DNA of 35,980 nt from contig JAAYVF010000019.1 of NCBI GenBank assembly GCA_012517325.1, forward strand, positions 1-35,980. Reading direction: 5' to 3'. Positions 3,618 through 33,430 of the stretch are shown here, in pieces (within the stretch, counting starts at the first letter, position 1; each line of letters begins with the position of its first letter). Below the pieces are notes generated by a model, which was not told the origin of the DNA, made no database searches, and was given only the letters and a program-made list of their open reading frames with translations. Made by a program: the position numbers and the translations under genes. The DNA is from Myxococcales bacterium. Lineage in GTDB: Bacteria; Lernaellota; Lernaellaia; Lernaellales; Lernaellaceae.

Positions 3618-3812
3618 TTACTCTTTCTTTTCTTCGATTTTCTTTTCGGGTTCGTTTTTCTTGTCGCCGGCGGTCAGATCGGCGGATGAGGCATCCTTGA
3701 ATTCCTTGATGCCCTTGCCCAGGCCGCGGCCGACTTCCGGCAACTTGCCCACGCCGAAAATGATCAGAATGATCACCAGGATGATGATCAGTTCGGTCGC
3801 CCCAATGCCCAT
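3618..3812 (-). CDS. tatA: Twin-arginine translocase subunit TatA
   Basis: TatA multimerises to form the protein-conducting element that moves folded twin-arginine substrates across the inner membrane. The 64-residue product shows the standard order: a short N-terminal transmembrane helix (about residues 5-20, isoleucine-rich), the FGVGKLPE hinge, an amphipathic helix beginning [14 protein letters not shown], then a charged, Lys/Glu-rich tail. No tatB or tatC is present in the window, so this is an orphan tatA as seen in many bacteria. A GGGAG lies upstream of ATG. A 43-codon membrane-peptide gene ends 12 bases before this start and is probably co-transcribed. Confidence 0.95.
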
Positions 3813-3824
3813 GACTCTTCTCCC

Positions 3825-3956
3825 TTATTTAAAGTATGGGGTGATCAGTCCCCACCCCAGGATTTCGTCCACCGTGGCGAACCCGAGCAGGCCGACGTAC
3901 ACGATGAGCAAACCCAGCAGCAGATTGGGCCAGATTTTTTGCAGGCGCTCGAGCAT
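3825..3956 (-). CDS. Small single-span membrane protein (43 aa) upstream of tatA
   Basis: I translated this short frame by hand. It reads MLERLQKIWPN, then a hydrophobic stretch (LLLGLLIVYVGLLGF, about residues 12-26), then ATVDEILGWGLITPYFK and a TAA stop. An AGGAGG motif sits about six bases before the ATG, which is as good as any start in the window. The stop is only 12 bases before the tatA start codon, so the two are very likely one transcript. The positive residues before the helix predict a cytoplasmic N-terminus. I do not recognise a family. A role with Tat is only suggested by position. Confidence 0.65.
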   Translation of the reverse strand: MLERLQKIWPNLLLGLLIVYVGLLGFATVDEILGWGLITPYFK

Positions 3957-4149
3957 ACCGCCCTCCTTTGCACAACGCCGGTATCCTCATAGCACATTCC
4001 GCGGTGACCCGCAATCAAGCGGCCGGTCAGAGGAAGTCGTCCTGATTCTTGTTAATATTCTGCCGGCTTGCCGGATGAATCGGTAAAAGGATTATTAAGT
4101 TGGTTACCCAACAGCATTGGAAAAGGGTGATGGCTTGTCCGTGTCGAAC

Positions 4150-4335
4150 CTAATCCAGATAGCGCTTTGTTGCGAGGTCCAGAGCTTGGCGACGAGCGTT
4201 CTCGTATTGGATGAAGATACTCTCGGTCGCCTTGATGAGTTGATCATGCGCTTGGCGCACCTTTTCCGGCGTGTCCAAAAGCCGTTCCCCTTTTTCTGAT
4301 TTTGTAACTCTCAGAATGAGATCGGATCTTTTCAT
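4150..4335 (-). CDS. Small helical protein coupled to the cysteine peptidase
   Basis: This is a 61-residue, highly charged, probably all-helical protein (starts MKRSDLILRVTKSE) with no signal peptide or membrane segment. The ATG chosen here overlaps the stop of the upstream cysteine-peptidase gene in an ATGA arrangement, the classic layout for translational coupling. A GTG two codons earlier is possible but less likely. The tight coupling suggests a fixed partner, for example a regulator, adaptor or immunity-type protein, but this is inference. I do not recognise the family. Base composition is AT-richer than the surrounding genome, as in its partner. Confidence 0.65.
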   Translation of the reverse strand: MKRSDLILRVTKSEKGERLLDTPEKVRQAHDQLIKATESIFIQYENARRQALDLATKRYLD

Positions 4336-5837
4336 GGGCACTCCCGTAGGTTGTTCACGTAAATATCATAGGGCCTTGAATCATGCAACCGCTTGTCCAT
4401 AACGAAGCGATGTGGTTTCAGTGAGCTTGTGTCGCGGTCGTTAACGATGAACCGACGCGGAAAGTGGATTGCGATGAAGCCGAACGGATCTTGCTGGGAG
4501 GCGGTGGCATCCCAAATGATTTCACCGAGGACCTGGCCTTTTTTTGCGCCCAGCGTACGATCGTCATACAATACCTTGGTGGTCATTTCGCAAACCCAAA
4601 TGAACTTCGGCATGGGAATTTGCTGGTAAACGCGACTTACCTCGTTTCCAATCGGGTGATCCTTGCGATATTTCTTATAAGAACGCGACGAAGTGAGAAA
4701 AATTCGAAACACCAAGTCCGGTGGTTCAAAACCAAAATTTTCCGTATTGAATCCATTGTTGGGGCAGAGAATATGAAATACATAGCTCTCGATGTGTTCA
4801 GCGGCCAGATAAATCTTTTCGTAAACCGGGACCACAAAGGTATCGATGTCCGCTATTTTGAACTCGGACTCATGAGGAACCAACCCGGTTGGCCCGCTTT
4901 TCCATAGCACCTGATAGGGAAGATGGTTGTCGTCATTGACAATAAATCCATCGACCAAATCATAGGTATTTATCGGATTACCGCCGGCAATGGCCGCGGC
5001 GGACCTTGGACAAGAGTGACCAAGAATCGTAATGGCATGGCTTTTCCCTCTTAGCCCGGCCACAACCGGCAAGCCAGACTCAACATAATAATATAGGAGC
5101 CGGTTAAATAAGGCCGGATCATTCCGATAGGTTTCACGAAAATAGATCAATGGGAAAAAACCGAACCGAGTGAAAATCTCCGACACCTGAAAAACAGTCA
5201 GACCGGTTGAAGGGACGCGCCTACCAAGCGAAAGATCATGAGTGAGTTGAGTCAGTTCATAAGGGTGAATTTCCGCGTAGGCCACGTACCTCTCGGAAAA
5301 GTAACGAAAAATCATCCAACATGCCGCGTGGGCACAAACGGTCACGTCTGTATCCTGGCTGATATAAGGAAAAGCATCAATCGCCAACGGCGAGCCGAGC
5401 AAATGATTTTTATAGCGAGTTTGCGCTAGAAAACCATGAACAAAACCAAGAAGAGCCGGGTTGATAAGCGTACGGCCGATGGTATTGGTTCTGGTCGGGC
5501 GAATGACCATCGAGCCGATATATTTTTCTTGGTACCGAGTCAGGTCCCAAAGCCCACGCGGGGCAATTCTCGTATTGAAAAAATTCAATCGGATCGCGCG
5601 AGGTGAATAGAGGGCGAATTTCTTTGAATAAAAGTGTGAAAACGTGTCTCGGTAATCCTTGTCATGGTAGTCTTTCTCAATCAACACGCACTGGGCGACA
5701 TCATGAAGGTAATGATAAATTTGACTCCAATCCCAGGGGGTCAAGAAATCCTGACAAAGATCAGACATTGATTGCCAATCTTCGGCTGATCGAAAATGAA
5801 CCAACGGATGCGTACTATTTTTGTAATATACCGTCAT
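4332..5837 (-). CDS. Predicted papain/C39-like cysteine peptidase, uncharacterised
   Basis: This is a 501-residue protein without a signal peptide. The centre looks like a papain-fold cysteine peptidase. QDTDVTVCAHAACWM (residues 161-175) offers an oxyanion Gln161 and nucleophile Cys168, as in the C39 pattern of Cys followed by Ala and a long helix. GKSHAITILGH supplies His267, and FIVNDDNHLPYQ supplies an Asp at 302 or 303. A preceding segment (YIGSMVIRPTRTNTIGRTLI, 106-125) and a long C-terminal region (about 340-501) are not recognised. The start is set at the ATG at 5837 because GAGGAG lies just before it; an upstream start at 5873 is possible. The gene is clearly AT-richer than its neighbours (one sampled line is 24/60 GC against 41/60 in the porin gene), which suggests transfer. 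It is coupled to the small gene at 4150-4335. Confidence 0.7.
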   Translation of the reverse strand: MTVYYKNSTHPLVHFRSAEDWQSMSDLCQDFLTPWDWSQIYHYLHDVAQCVLIEKDYHDKDYRDTFSHFYSKKFALYSPRAIRLNFFNTRIAPRGLWDLTRYQEKYIGSMVIRPTRTNTIGRTLINPALLGFVHGFLAQTRYKNHLLGSPLAIDAFPYISQDTDVTVCAHAACWMIFRYFSERYVAYAEIHPYELTQLTHDLSLGRRVPSTGLTVFQVSEIFTRFGFFPLIYFRETYRNDPALFNRLLYYYVESGLPVVAGLRGKSHAITILGHSCPRSAAAIAGGNPINTYDLVDGFIVNDDNHLPYQVLWKSGPTGLVPHESEFKIADIDTFVVPVYEKIYLAAEHIESYVFHILCPNNGFNTENFGFEPPDLVFRIFLTSSRSYKKYRKDHPIGNEVSRVYQQIPMPKFIWVCEMTTKVLYDDRTLGAKKGQVLGEIIWDATASQQDPFGFIAIHFPRRFIVNDRDTSSLKPHRFVMDKRLHDSRPYDIYVNNLRECP

Positions 5838-6190
5838 GCCTCTCCTCGCCTCACAGATTCCTCGTTCAAACAATCCAACCGAAGTAATTTATTTAGCCAC
5901 CTTAGAAAATTATGAGTTACCGTCGTTTGCTTGACTCCTATACGTACCGGTACTTGATGTCAAGAGTAAATTGCAAATGCCATCGTTTCAGTAAAATGAA
6001 AAGTTTTTCACCAGTTTGGTGACTACCTTGAGCGTTCAAGCGGCCGCTTCCAGCGAAACCCGGCCGGAAACCTTTGAACTTGCATTCAGACCGCCAAACC
6101 GTTATACACTGCTAGATTCTCCGAGGATTTTGGGATGCTGAACCGCCCGCCTTTGATCGGCGGCCGCGGCCCGAAGAAAGGGTGGTATCC
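5838..6190. other. AT-rich intergenic region with short palindromes
   Basis: No gene is seen in this stretch, which separates the divergent cysteine-peptidase cassette from the porin gene. It must hold the promoters of both. Two short adjacent palindromes are visible: GTACCGGTAC at 5944-5953 and CTTGATGTCAAG at 5953-5964, either of which could be an operator. GC rises again after about 6040, marking the end of the AT-rich island. Confidence 0.4.
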
Positions 6191-11514: not shown

Positions 11515-12021
11515 TCACTCCGATTGTTCCGGATAATCCGGATAATAAGGAGTCATATTGACGTCGCTTTCACAGGCACGAAACTCGTCGATGTAATTCA
11601 AAATGATCGTCCGGCGCTGCTCAAGATCGATGGGATGAAAAGCCAGATCCACCTTGATGTCATACCAAGCGTCGCTCAGACAATCAGCGTCGTAGCCGCA
11701 ATGCGAAAGCTCGGACCACTCCGGCTCGGAACAACCCGGATCCCAGAAATAACCGCCCATGAAGAAGCAAATCCATAAATCGGCGAAATCGTAACCGCTG
11801 TGCGGCAGACAAGCGGAAAAATCCTCGCAGCAGGATTGTTGATCCCAATTGTATTCGGCCAGGACGACGCAGGCTTGAAAGGCATCCAGGCATTCGTCCG
11901 GTTGGCCGCAATCGTAATCGCGGTCATCGTCGTCGTCGCCGCAAGCCGGAAGAATGCCGCCGACGACCGCCAGAATCATCAAGCCGATCAGTCCGAATTC
12001 CAATGTCATGATTCGTCGCAC
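11515..12021 (-). CDS. Cys-rich lipoprotein of unknown function
   Basis: This is a 168-residue predicted lipoprotein. A hydrophobic segment ends in a lipobox (LPAC, Cys near residue 27) followed by GDDDDD. The mature domain carries many Cys residues (DECLDAFQAC, QSCCEDFSAC, then CFFMGGYFWDPGC and HCGYDADC) and is rich in aromatic residues, suggesting a disulfide-stabilised extracytoplasmic fold. The layout resembles the lipoproteins at 327 and 976, and the paired-Cys DDCL/CCED style suggests they are distant paralogues. The start is a GTG with GAAGG six bases upstream; an internal ATG four codons later is an alternative. Function not recognised. Confidence 0.72.
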   Translation of the reverse strand: MRRIMTLEFGLIGLMILAVVGGILPACGDDDDDRDYDCGQPDECLDAFQACVVLAEYNWDQQSCCEDFSACLPHSGYDFADLWICFFMGGYFWDPGCSEPEWSELSHCGYDADCLSDAWYDIKVDLAFHPIDLEQRRTIILNYIDEFRACESDVNMTPYYPDYPEQSE

Positions 12022-13084: not shown

Positions 13085-13663
13085 TCAATCGATTTTTCGC
13101 CAGACCAAATTCAGATCTAAAAACATCCACTCAAAACCACCGTTCGATAACTCATGGTAAGCCACAAGCTCGAATTCTCCATCGATTGTGCACCTCATGC
13201 TGGCATTGAATTGAAGATAATCAGGGTTTGATTGATCGAGACCGCAAAGATAAATTTCACCATTCGCCGAGGTCACCTCAACCGGTATTCCCCAAGATGA
13301 GTCGCAAAGAAGCTGATTGCCGTCGGAATGAATGGGAAACATCCAAAAACCGGATGACGCGCAGGACATGGTCAGCGTCGTGCCATCCGCCGGATTTTCA
13401 TACAGGCCGGCGTATCGTTCCAAAATCTTTTGCGCTTTTTGGTAGTCTTCCTCGGAAACATCCTCGGGCTTGGGCGGCAGGCAATCATCGGCTGATTCGT
13501 CGGCGGTGGCAACGAAGGAATCCGCCTCGGCTTCAACCTCCACGGTGATCGAGCACGAACCTGATGGGTCGTTGTTATGATCGTCCGTGCAGGCGATTAA
13601 AAGAAAAAGGTAAAAAGTGACAAGCGCTAATATCAAAATGAAATGAATTTTTTTTGATTTCAT
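13085..13663 (-). CDS. Predicted lipoprotein of unknown function
   Basis: This is a 192-residue predicted lipoprotein. A Lys-rich N-terminus and a long hydrophobic segment end in a lipobox (LIAC, Cys at about residue 25), followed by an acidic TDDHNND linker. A Glu/Ala-rich stretch (about 40-65) leads into a domain with helical KAQKILERYAGLYENP and then beta strands, perhaps resembling small adhesion or inhibitor folds. I do not recognise it. AAGGAG before ATG supports the start. The gene is AT-richer than its neighbours and its upstream region to 13880 contains a striking AT-rich palindrome. Confidence 0.75.
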   Translation of the reverse strand: MKSKKIHFILILALVTFYLFLLIACTDDHNNDPSGSCSITVEVEAEADSFVATADESADDCLPPKPEDVSEEDYQKAQKILERYAGLYENPADGTTLTMSCASSGFWMFPIHSDGNQLLCDSSWGIPVEVTSANGEIYLCGLDQSNPDYLQFNASMRCTIDGEFELVAYHELSNGGFEWMFLDLNLVWRKID

Positions 13664-31300: not shown

Positions 31301-33430
31301 TCAATCCGCCCAGTAGCGGCGGCGGCCCTGCTGGAAATCGAGCTGCAGGCGCCGGGTTCCCAGTTCGATCGCGGTGACGTTGTCGCCGAACTCCTGGTAG
31401 CAATACGGGTTGTCGAACCGCGCGTAGGGGCCGAGATCCACCGTTTCGCCGTCGACGACCATCGCGCCGGTATAACCGACTTCGACCGTGCCGCGGCTGG
31501 GTGATTCGTAGGTCACGGCATCGCCGATCGTCACCGTCGCGTTTTGGATGTCGGCGACGAATTGCGCGAACGAGCCGTTTTCCGCCGCGTCGCCCAATTC
31601 GACGAGCCACACGTTCTCCCGTGCGTCGGCGATCAATTCGTAGTCGTTTTCCGTCGACCAGACCGGCGGTTCCTGCGAATACAGCGCCACGTAGGCGTCG
31701 CCTTTGCGGCCGATGGTCCAGTGTTCGTCCTGGACCAATTCGTCGAATTCGTTCTTCGGGAAATAGGCATGCGAGTAATCGACGAACAGGTACTGATCGA
31801 GCAACGGAATGTCCGGCCGCCGGTATTGGAAGACGCCGACGTTCTTGAACATCGTCGCCCGCGGCGTCCAGCCGCCGGTCCAGGGTCCGGCCATGTAGTC
31901 GTCGGCCAGCCCGCCCGGATACGAAGTGAACACGTAGGCGTCGGCATCGAGCGTCGCCTGCCAGATGTGAATCTGGGCGGTCCACATGCCCGGATTGTAA
32001 TCCTGTGCGCCGGAAAGCTGATAATCCGGCGTCCGGTAGGTGTAGGTGCCCATCGTTTCCAGCGCCACGCCGCGCGACATCGGCTCCAGCAGGGTGGAGA
32101 CGAATTTCAACAACGGACTGCCGACCAGGAAGCGCAGGAAGGCGAGGTCGCTCCACAGGAAACCGTCCCACATGTCGAAATTTTCCACGAGGTCGAACGT
32201 GCCGGTAACGATATCGGGCGCCACGTAGCCGGTGGCCCCCCACCAGAAGAGGATGTCGTCCCAATCCTCGTAGCCGATGCCGTAATCCGGGCCGTCGGCG
32301 ATGTCGATGCTGTCCCGCTGCCGGTGCTCCAGTTCGTTGAGCGCGTCGTTCGCGACGTCTTCCAGCACGGCCGGCGGCCAGTAGAAATCGCTGGTCGCCA
32401 GGTGCGTGGCGCTGAAGTTGCCGCTGCCGTTGCGGGTTCCTAGCCCCAGCATGATCCAGGCCGCGCCATCGGTCGAATCGGACAAGCCGCCGAGCAGATG
32501 GCTCTGGTAGGTGCGGCCGTGCGTCGTGGCATACAGCCCGCGGTAATAGTTGGCGGCCATGTCGAAAGCGAGAATATCCAGGGTCATCGCGGCCTTGGTT
32601 CGTGCGGTATCGTCCTCGGCGAAATCGACCAGGTTGACCAGCGCCGGCATATCCTCGTTGAAGTAAACGTTCGAGTGCCATTCGGAAAAGCCGAATTTGC
32701 CGCGGAAATCGAGCCAGCGCAGAACCTGCGGCAAGGCATGGGCCACGTGCTCGGCGCCGGTCATGCCGGCATTCGGAAACACGTCGTCGGGGAACAACTG
32801 CCCGGCCAGCAACTCGGCGGAATGAAACAGGATTTGGTGATTTTCCGACCACCAGCACATCGTGTCCGGCCCGGTTTCGTCCAGCCAGTATTTGAAGTTG
32901 AGCACCGCGGCCTCGATGTCCGCCTTCAACTCCGTCGGCAGCACGTTCCGGTCGCGATCGAGATACAACAGGCGCAACAGGGAATTCAGGTCGAAATCCG
33001 CGGTGTCCTCGCGGGCGTTGATCTCCGCCAGGCTTTCCTGAATGGCCGTTTCGCTGTAGGTCGTTTCGCCGTTGTAAACCCGGCAGACCTGGCCGTAGAC
33101 GCCGCCGTCGGGCGGGGCATTGTCGGCGTCGCACGCCGCCAGGTACTCGGCCTGCCGGCTCAGAAAACCATCCGTCGGCTCGATTGGATCGCCGGGATCG
33201 GTATCGTCGTTGTCGTCATTGTCGTCGTTGTCGTCATTGTCGTCATTATCGTCATTGTCATCATTGTCGTCATTGTCGTCATCGTTATCGTCATCATCGT
33301 CGGCGACGGAGCTATCGTCATCGTCATCGTCAACCGATGAAGAATCATCATCATCGTCATCGCCGCATGCCGCCAGCGAAAAAAGCGCCAGAAGTGAGAG
33401 AATGAACAACAGCCCGCAATAGAGTTTCAT
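31301..33430 (-). CDS. Large lipoprotein with predicted alpha-toroid domain
   Basis: This 709-residue lipoprotein has its lipidated Cys at 22 (LAAC), then a long Asp/Asn/Ser linker (about 24-77) encoded partly by the 9-bp tandem repeat at 33206-33277. The following part (about 90-480) is rich in helices with conserved-looking WWSENHQILFHSAELLAGQL, GFSEWHSNVYF and DFYWPPAVL, a pattern reminiscent of (alpha/alpha)6 toroid enzymes such as heparinase-like lyases. The C-terminal 200 residues look like a beta sandwich. I do not place it in a named family and call it only a candidate surface polysaccharide-active enzyme. AT-rich DNA flanks it on both sides. Confidence 0.75.
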   Translation of the reverse strand: MKLYCGLLFILSLLALFSLAACGDDDDDDSSSVDDDDDDSSVADDDDDNDDDNDDNDDNDDNDDNDDNDDNDDNDDTDPGDPIEPTDGFLSRQAEYLAACDADNAPPDGGVYGQVCRVYNGETTYSETAIQESLAEINAREDTADFDLNSLLRLLYLDRDRNVLPTELKADIEAAVLNFKYWLDETGPDTMCWWSENHQILFHSAELLAGQLFPDDVFPNAGMTGAEHVAHALPQVLRWLDFRGKFGFSEWHSNVYFNEDMPALVNLVDFAEDDTARTKAAMTLDILAFDMAANYYRGLYATTHGRTYQSHLLGGLSDSTDGAAWIMLGLGTRNGSGNFSATHLATSDFYWPPAVLEDVANDALNELEHRQRDSIDIADGPDYGIGYEDWDDILFWWGATGYVAPDIVTGTFDLVENFDMWDGFLWSDLAFLRFLVGSPLLKFVSTLLEPMSRGVALETMGTYTYRTPDYQLSGAQDYNPGMWTAQIHIWQATLDADAYVFTSYPGGLADDYMAGPWTGGWTPRATMFKNVGVFQYRRPDIPLLDQYLFVDYSHAYFPKNEFDELVQDEHWTIGRKGDAYVALYSQEPPVWSTENDYELIADARENVWLVELGDAAENGSFAQFVADIQNATVTIGDAVTYESPSRGTVEVGYTGAMVVDGETVDLGPYARFDNPYCYQEFGDNVTAIELGTRRLQLDFQQGRRRYWAD
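33206..33277. repeat. 9-bp tandem repeat encoding an Asp/Asn linker
   Basis: Eight near-identical 9-base units (GTCATTGTC and one-base variants on the plus strand) lie in a row, inside the lipoprotein gene on the minus strand. Each unit keeps the reading frame and encodes Asp-Asn-Asp-type tripeptides. Shorter stretches of similar GTC/ATC triplets extend on both sides to about 33200-33360. Confidence 0.85.

Follow-up and report, generated by a model that had tools for sequence, protein, structure and literature searches.

A mobile gene pair encoding a putative papain-like cysteine peptidase and a small partner is a candidate bacterial defence or toxin-antitoxin system

Analysis of a 35,980-nucleotide stretch of bacterial DNA (hereafter the window) identified a two-gene module, a predicted papain-like cysteine peptidase and a small, probably helical partner, that makes a good candidate for a bacterial system not described before, of the defence or the toxin-antitoxin kind. 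Its mobility and the pairing of its genes are well supported, as is the prediction that the larger product is a papain-like peptidase. The reading we prefer is that of a mobile module whose protease is restrained by the helical partner and released on a trigger, probably in defence against phage. We give this reading a probability of about 0.45; that the two proteins bind, that the partner inhibits, the nature of trigger and target, and a role in defence are inferred.

The two genes and their surroundings are listed in Table 1, together with genes found beside homologous modules at other loci. Both open reading frames proposed in the initial annotation were exact, and the ATGA joining them was seen in the sequence. 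The start codon at 5837 agrees with the aligned N-termini of homologues, and GGGAGTG, a purine-rich and ribosome-binding-like stretch, lies upstream of the 61-aa frame. Scans for promoters and terminators gave results no better than shuffled sequence. The pair had also been described as AT-richer than its surroundings, which holds: GC in the large gene is 0.47 and GC3 0.52, whereas the window as a whole has a GC of 0.605 and most real neighbours have a GC3 close to 0.8. A single further gene of the window, at 13085-13663, is as GC-poor as the peptidase gene, so low GC alone is weak, supporting evidence of foreign origin. Elsewhere in the window, three predicted lipoproteins (976-1575, 11515-12021 and 31301-33430, all on the minus strand) begin with a lipobox-like Cys, after which come long runs of Asp and Asn (CADDDDNDNDDDN); this is apparently a house style among the secreted proteins of this genome.

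Table 1. Features of the two-gene module in the window, and selected genes adjoining homologous modules at other loci.
Feature	Locus	Position	Strand	Remarks
Peptidase gene (P0001)	window	4332..5837	-	501 aa, ATG start; predicted papain-like (C39-fold) with extra N- and C-terminal domains
Partner gene (P0002)	window	4150..4335	-	61 aa, predicted helical, hydrophobic C-terminal tail (RYLD)
ATGA overlap of peptidase stop and partner start	window	4332..4335	-	from the sequence; read as translational coupling
Ribosome-binding-like GAGGAGAGG 5' of peptidase start	window	5838..5850	-	purine-rich
Bracket between aligned flanks, containing the acquired insert (~2 kb)	window	3885..6072		G001 synteny and flank alignment
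43-aa ORF with one TM segment, directly upstream of tatA	window	3825..3956	-	pre-existing flank, outside the module; G001 counterpart judged by eye
Type I restriction	L002, L070			two clear loci; three proteins match the model
Snf2/DEAD helicases	L005, L006			
pAgo and HKD-Snf2 helicase	L016			terminase-bearing viral contig
DUF1156 methyltransferase and HipA-like genes	L050			
Caspase and DEAD helicase	L018			
TrlF ATPase	L019			
ThiF E1	L017, L020, L044, L046, L072			5/39 loci
Multiubiquitin, E2-like or DUF6527, and ThiF beside the module	L017	10554-12726		
Multiubiquitin, E2-like or DUF6527, and ThiF beside the module	L072	5920-7996		
Multiubiquitin, E2-like or DUF6527, and ThiF beside the module	L020	5680-8028		
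Multiubiquitin, E2-like or DUF6527, and ThiF beside the module	L044	5049-7078		

An empty site in a related genus (genome G001, locus L085) shows where the module was inserted. There, glpK, tatA and an outer-membrane fadL-like gene lie in the same order as in the window (76, 68 and 52% identity), and the flanking DNA could be aligned at window positions 3810-3884 and 6073-6089. Between these flanks lie ~180 bp in G001 versus ~2.2 kb in the window, and the acquired piece therefore consists essentially of the peptidase and partner genes. The 43-aa frame beside tatA looks like part of the ancestral flank, and the insert, ~2 kb long, therefore probably starts after ~3960; this small frame is perhaps an unannotated twin-arginine accessory gene. 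A search for repeats or att sites flanking the module returned only short two-copy matches, none of which stood out. The suggestion that the pair is a transferred two-gene module is supported by the empty site, together with a patchy distribution and carriage on plasmids and a viral contig.

We collected about 40 peptidase homologues from unrelated bacteria, including four plasmids, and from one viral contig. A single genome scan yielded 11 loci, with record names covering Pseudomonadota, Deltaproteobacteria, Desulfobulbus and relatives, Phycisphaerae, Chitinophaga, Algoriphagus and a Thiosymbion. In whole-genome searches the peptidase was present in 15 of 386 genomes across the domain and in 9 of 346 within one phylum. 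The nearest relatives of the window peptidase share ~46-52% identity with it and fall outside its family and class as sampled, and five of the six nearest sampled genomes (G001-G006) lack the peptidase, the sixth (G005) having a distant branch only. Given this patchy distribution, horizontal spread is indicated.

The module appears in none of the reference collections that we searched. The window peptidase had no match in Pfam even at an E-value of 10, in NCBIfam even at 1, or in PHROGs, and neither it, the window partner nor four homologues matched PADLOC-DB 2.0.0 at 10. Sequence searches of the PDB, with the single protein and with a profile, gave chance matches only; phage records held no peptidase homologue, and a viral fold library returned only weak papain-like matches. 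Among open papers we found no account of the peptidase-partner pair. The catalytic fold and two-gene protease or toxin modules are already known; what the searched libraries lack is this family of enzymes, the partner and the constant pairing of the two.

A putative Cys168/His267/Asp302 or 303 triad in a papain- or C39-like core had been proposed for the large protein, with structure prediction as a check. The predicted structure does contain a papain-like core, and the homologues keep the catalytic residues, with Asp303 rather than Asp302 as the acidic member. Cys168 is conserved in 40/40 homologues, His267 in 39/39, Asp303 in 39/39 and the presumed oxyanion residue Gln161 in 38/40, one frame-broken row in this count being without the His and Asp. 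In the AlphaFold2 model (30-row alignment; pLDDT 88.2, pTM 0.90), Cys168 starts a helix (168-183), His267 starts a strand (267-275) and Asp303 lies just past another strand (297-301). By this modelled secondary structure the elements follow the papain order Gln-Cys-His-Asp, as in clan CA peptidases. The best Foldseek matches were C39 peptidase domains (PCAT1, ComA and an AMS/PCAT protease with leader peptide, 6mpz) at probabilities of 0.99-1.00 and target TM scores of 0.6-0.72, with E-values of 0.005-0.04, none below 0.001; the Ufm1 protease UfSP (5ejj) followed at a probability of 0.94. The ~150 residues on each side of the core appear to form additional domains without a recognised match. 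The identification of the protein as a papain-like cysteine peptidase with a C39-type core is well supported by conservation and modelling together; unbroken conservation of the triad argues for catalysis, and the enzyme is probably active and cytosolic. Two plasmid homologues (L019 and L020) share an extra C-terminal domain of ~220 residues (~500-726; TGxxAARIxGE...WEVNFFSGRYSGDY) that is absent from the window protein.

Where the flank is intact, almost all homologues have beside them a gene for a partner of 52-74 aa. No clear partner was recognised at L068 or L040, and at L046 and L073 the gene downstream is of another kind. In one clade (19 of the 37 tree rows, support 99/98) the partner overlaps the end of the peptidase gene or follows it after a gap of ~1-20 nt. 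On other branches it lies 12 to ~150 nt upstream, an order that does not form one clade on the tree. Several upstream-type partners outside the plasmids were chosen by eye among small frames, and homology between upstream-type and downstream-type partners is an assumption. In all four plasmids the small gene is independently annotated. Under strict mechanical criteria, 13 of the 18 homologues in the downstream clade are followed by a coupled frame of 45-85 aa (inspection finds one after all 18), compared with 9 of 263 control genes. Peptidase and partner pairwise distances also correlate (mirror-tree rho 0.75, versus 0.43 for the best of 2000 permutations), a correlation to which shared ancestry contributes. 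Chance pairing is ruled out by the control genes together with this co-variation. The expected co-conservation of the small gene beside the large one is thus observed, and the arrangement is a conserved two-gene pair with a small partner, as in toxin-antitoxin systems. No fusion of peptidase and partner was present among the long homologues.

The bodies of the partner proteins are weakly conserved, with an Ala near the C-terminus invariant in a 16-row alignment. Their last residues are more hydrophobic than in any of 10,000 shuffles (p below 1e-4; 23 non-redundant sequences), with tails such as KYLD, FVVD, VILTA, FALR, FAWR and KVVR. AlphaFold2 predicted the window partner to be one long helix (residues 23-60; pLDDT 77), both ends being less certain.

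At ~13 of 39 loci, about a third, the module has known or likely defence genes next to it (Table 1), although the HipA and some of the helicase labels are our own reading of the sequences and not database matches. The 130 module neighbours matched 209 PADLOC models, versus 70 matched by 121 control genes, taken from 16 regions far from the module in the same genomes; restriction, E1 and pAgo models were absent among the 25 listed of those 70. The module is therefore enriched beside known defence genes, on a comparison that is coarse because the tally counts models and not loci. The initial annotation had offered toxin-partner, defence or regulatory proteolysis as possible purposes and asked whether homologues sit in defence islands. 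The proposed purposes are supported only in part. Defence-like surroundings were seen at about a third of loci; in about two thirds, the window included, there is no recognised defence gene within 4-5 kb, and the window's own surroundings are ordinary chromosome.

On the 18-kb viral contig (L016, 9366-15556), the module, an Argonaute (PADLOC E-value 6e-265), a 218-aa protein and an HKD-Snf2 helicase form a compact defence-like cassette, located on a viral or prophage element with a terminase. At L050 (1852-12196), what looks like a composite defence island lines up genes for a 1044-aa protein, a HipA-like kinase and a HipA-like partner, then the module and the gene for an HmaB-related DUF1156 methyltransferase.

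Ubiquitin-like conjugation genes are a recurrent type of neighbour. Multiubiquitin genes are found at four of the five loci with ThiF, including both E1-bearing plasmids, where they lie beside the module. At L017 and L072 the convergent ThiF gene overlaps the end of the peptidase gene by a few bases; these two are sister rows on the tree, so the E1 linkage appears to have arisen in about four lineages. Multi_ubiq was detected in 6 of 372 background genomes and in 2 of 24 carrier genomes, each of the latter with a copy beside the module. Linkage to E1, E2 or modifier genes is not constant across the 39 loci (ThiF at five, multiubiquitin at four).

We propose that the large gene would yield an active papain-like cysteine peptidase, and the coupled small gene a helical protein that binds it. 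The partner helix would dock on the peptidase and place its hydrophobic C-terminal tail in the substrate groove, thereby holding the enzyme inactive. C39 enzymes bind a helical leader that continues into an extended tail; since the partner is a predicted helix with a selected hydrophobic tail, we propose inhibition of a product-like kind, in which the tail would lie much like a C39 leader peptide and stop at the point where a product would end. This tail-in-groove placement is a guess by analogy, and the AlphaFold2 model, helical almost to the partner's end, speaks against it. A trigger, most likely phage infection, would relieve the inhibition and permit proteolysis of a host or phage protein. 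The papain-like protease fold is widely used in animal and plant immunity. A broader and rather unlikely extension would see here a widespread and as yet undescribed class of protease-based bacterial immunity in which the active site of a papain-like enzyme is filled by the tail of a dedicated helical protein, and which sometimes works with ubiquitin-like systems as a tail-specific conjugase or deconjugase of a non-ubiquitin modifier.

Other readings of the pair have to be weighed against restraint by the partner. The small protein could be a substrate or modifier whose tail the peptidase recognises in the manner of a ubiquitin-like protease, processing, conjugating or deconjugating it beside ubiquitin-like conjugation systems. 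The preserved tail, the fold match to UfSP and the ThiF and multiubiquitin linkages, seen against the low background of Multi_ubiq, make this a minor but real possibility. However, a Multi_ubiq gene is missing at most loci and from the window genome too. The partner is predicted to be helical and not beta-grasp and does not end in Gly-Gly, the E1 operon usually runs convergently to the module and is separate from it, and the UfSP match is no better than those to C39. Activation of a downstream effector, as in bacterial protease-gasdermin pairs, with the small protein as sensor or chaperone, seems quite improbable. It draws on L046 (7256-7563) and L073 (7640-7957), where the peptidase gene overlaps a gene whose product of 102-105 aa has two apparent transmembrane stretches, the two products being related (26% identity, E-value 5e-10); yet other loci, the window among them, have no such third gene, and L046 has no clear small partner. 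These ~100-aa proteins are possible membrane effectors, and L073 also has an 82-aa helical gene upstream of the peptidase.

A cytosolic housekeeping or regulatory protease, acting in stress or quality control, might also move horizontally by chance and enter islands passively. The many loci in ordinary chromosome would suit such an enzyme, whereas the patchy spread, plasmid and viral carriage, defence neighbours beyond those of control regions and near-constant pairing would not, and we regard it as unlikely. Highly improbable is an ordinary C39 peptidase for bacteriocin maturation and export with the small gene as precursor, despite the C39 fold and the small adjacent frame. The initial annotation had noted no transporter or substrate gene near the pair in the window. 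Among the neighbours read within 4 kb at most loci, no ABC transporter gene or double-glycine precursor was recognised, and the partners have no Gly-Gly motif; bacteriocin processing is disfavoured on these grounds. Moreover, the peptidase is predicted to be cytosolic with two extra domains, and the conserved tail is the very end of the partner, which leaves nothing beyond it to be released.

The peptidase family occurs in ~3-4% of the bacterial genomes sampled, matches nothing in the four family libraries that we searched and is apparently intact in its catalytic residues throughout, which points to a large class of enzymes that has escaped annotation. Should it act as an immune effector, the bacterial repertoire would gain a papain-like protease held by its own small restraint. 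Because the module recurs near ubiquitin-like conjugation genes, a connection between modification and proteolysis in bacteria can be put to the test.

Among known systems, the C39 domains of ComA, PCAT1 and AMS proteins share the predicted fold and the Gln/Cys/His/Asp order, and the module's possible helical partner with an extended tail recalls their leader-peptide binding (6mpz). The module differs in having no fused or nearby transporter and no double-glycine substrate, judging from neighbours within 4 kb at most loci and from the partner sequences, and its peptidase has N- and C-terminal domains of ~150 residues each without a Pfam match. UfSP (C78), the second-best solved fold, likewise combines a papain-like core with additional domains, and the module sometimes adjoins ubiquitin-like operons; however, no sequence similarity was found (no Pfam match), and the catalytic order in C78 is Cys-Asp-His, unlike the Cys-His-Asp of the module. 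Staphopain and staphostatin also couple a papain-like protease gene to a small gene, and staphopain gave a weak Foldseek match. Staphopain is secreted and staphostatin is a beta-barrel inhibitor, whereas the module's protease is predicted to be cytosolic and its partner helical. Type II toxin-antitoxin systems and two-gene defence modules, including the protease-bearing ietAS, differ from the module in that it has no DNA-binding partner, its partner gene can precede or follow that of the enzyme, and its enzyme family is unlisted; they resemble it in their overlapping genes, mobility, small charged partner and defence neighbours.
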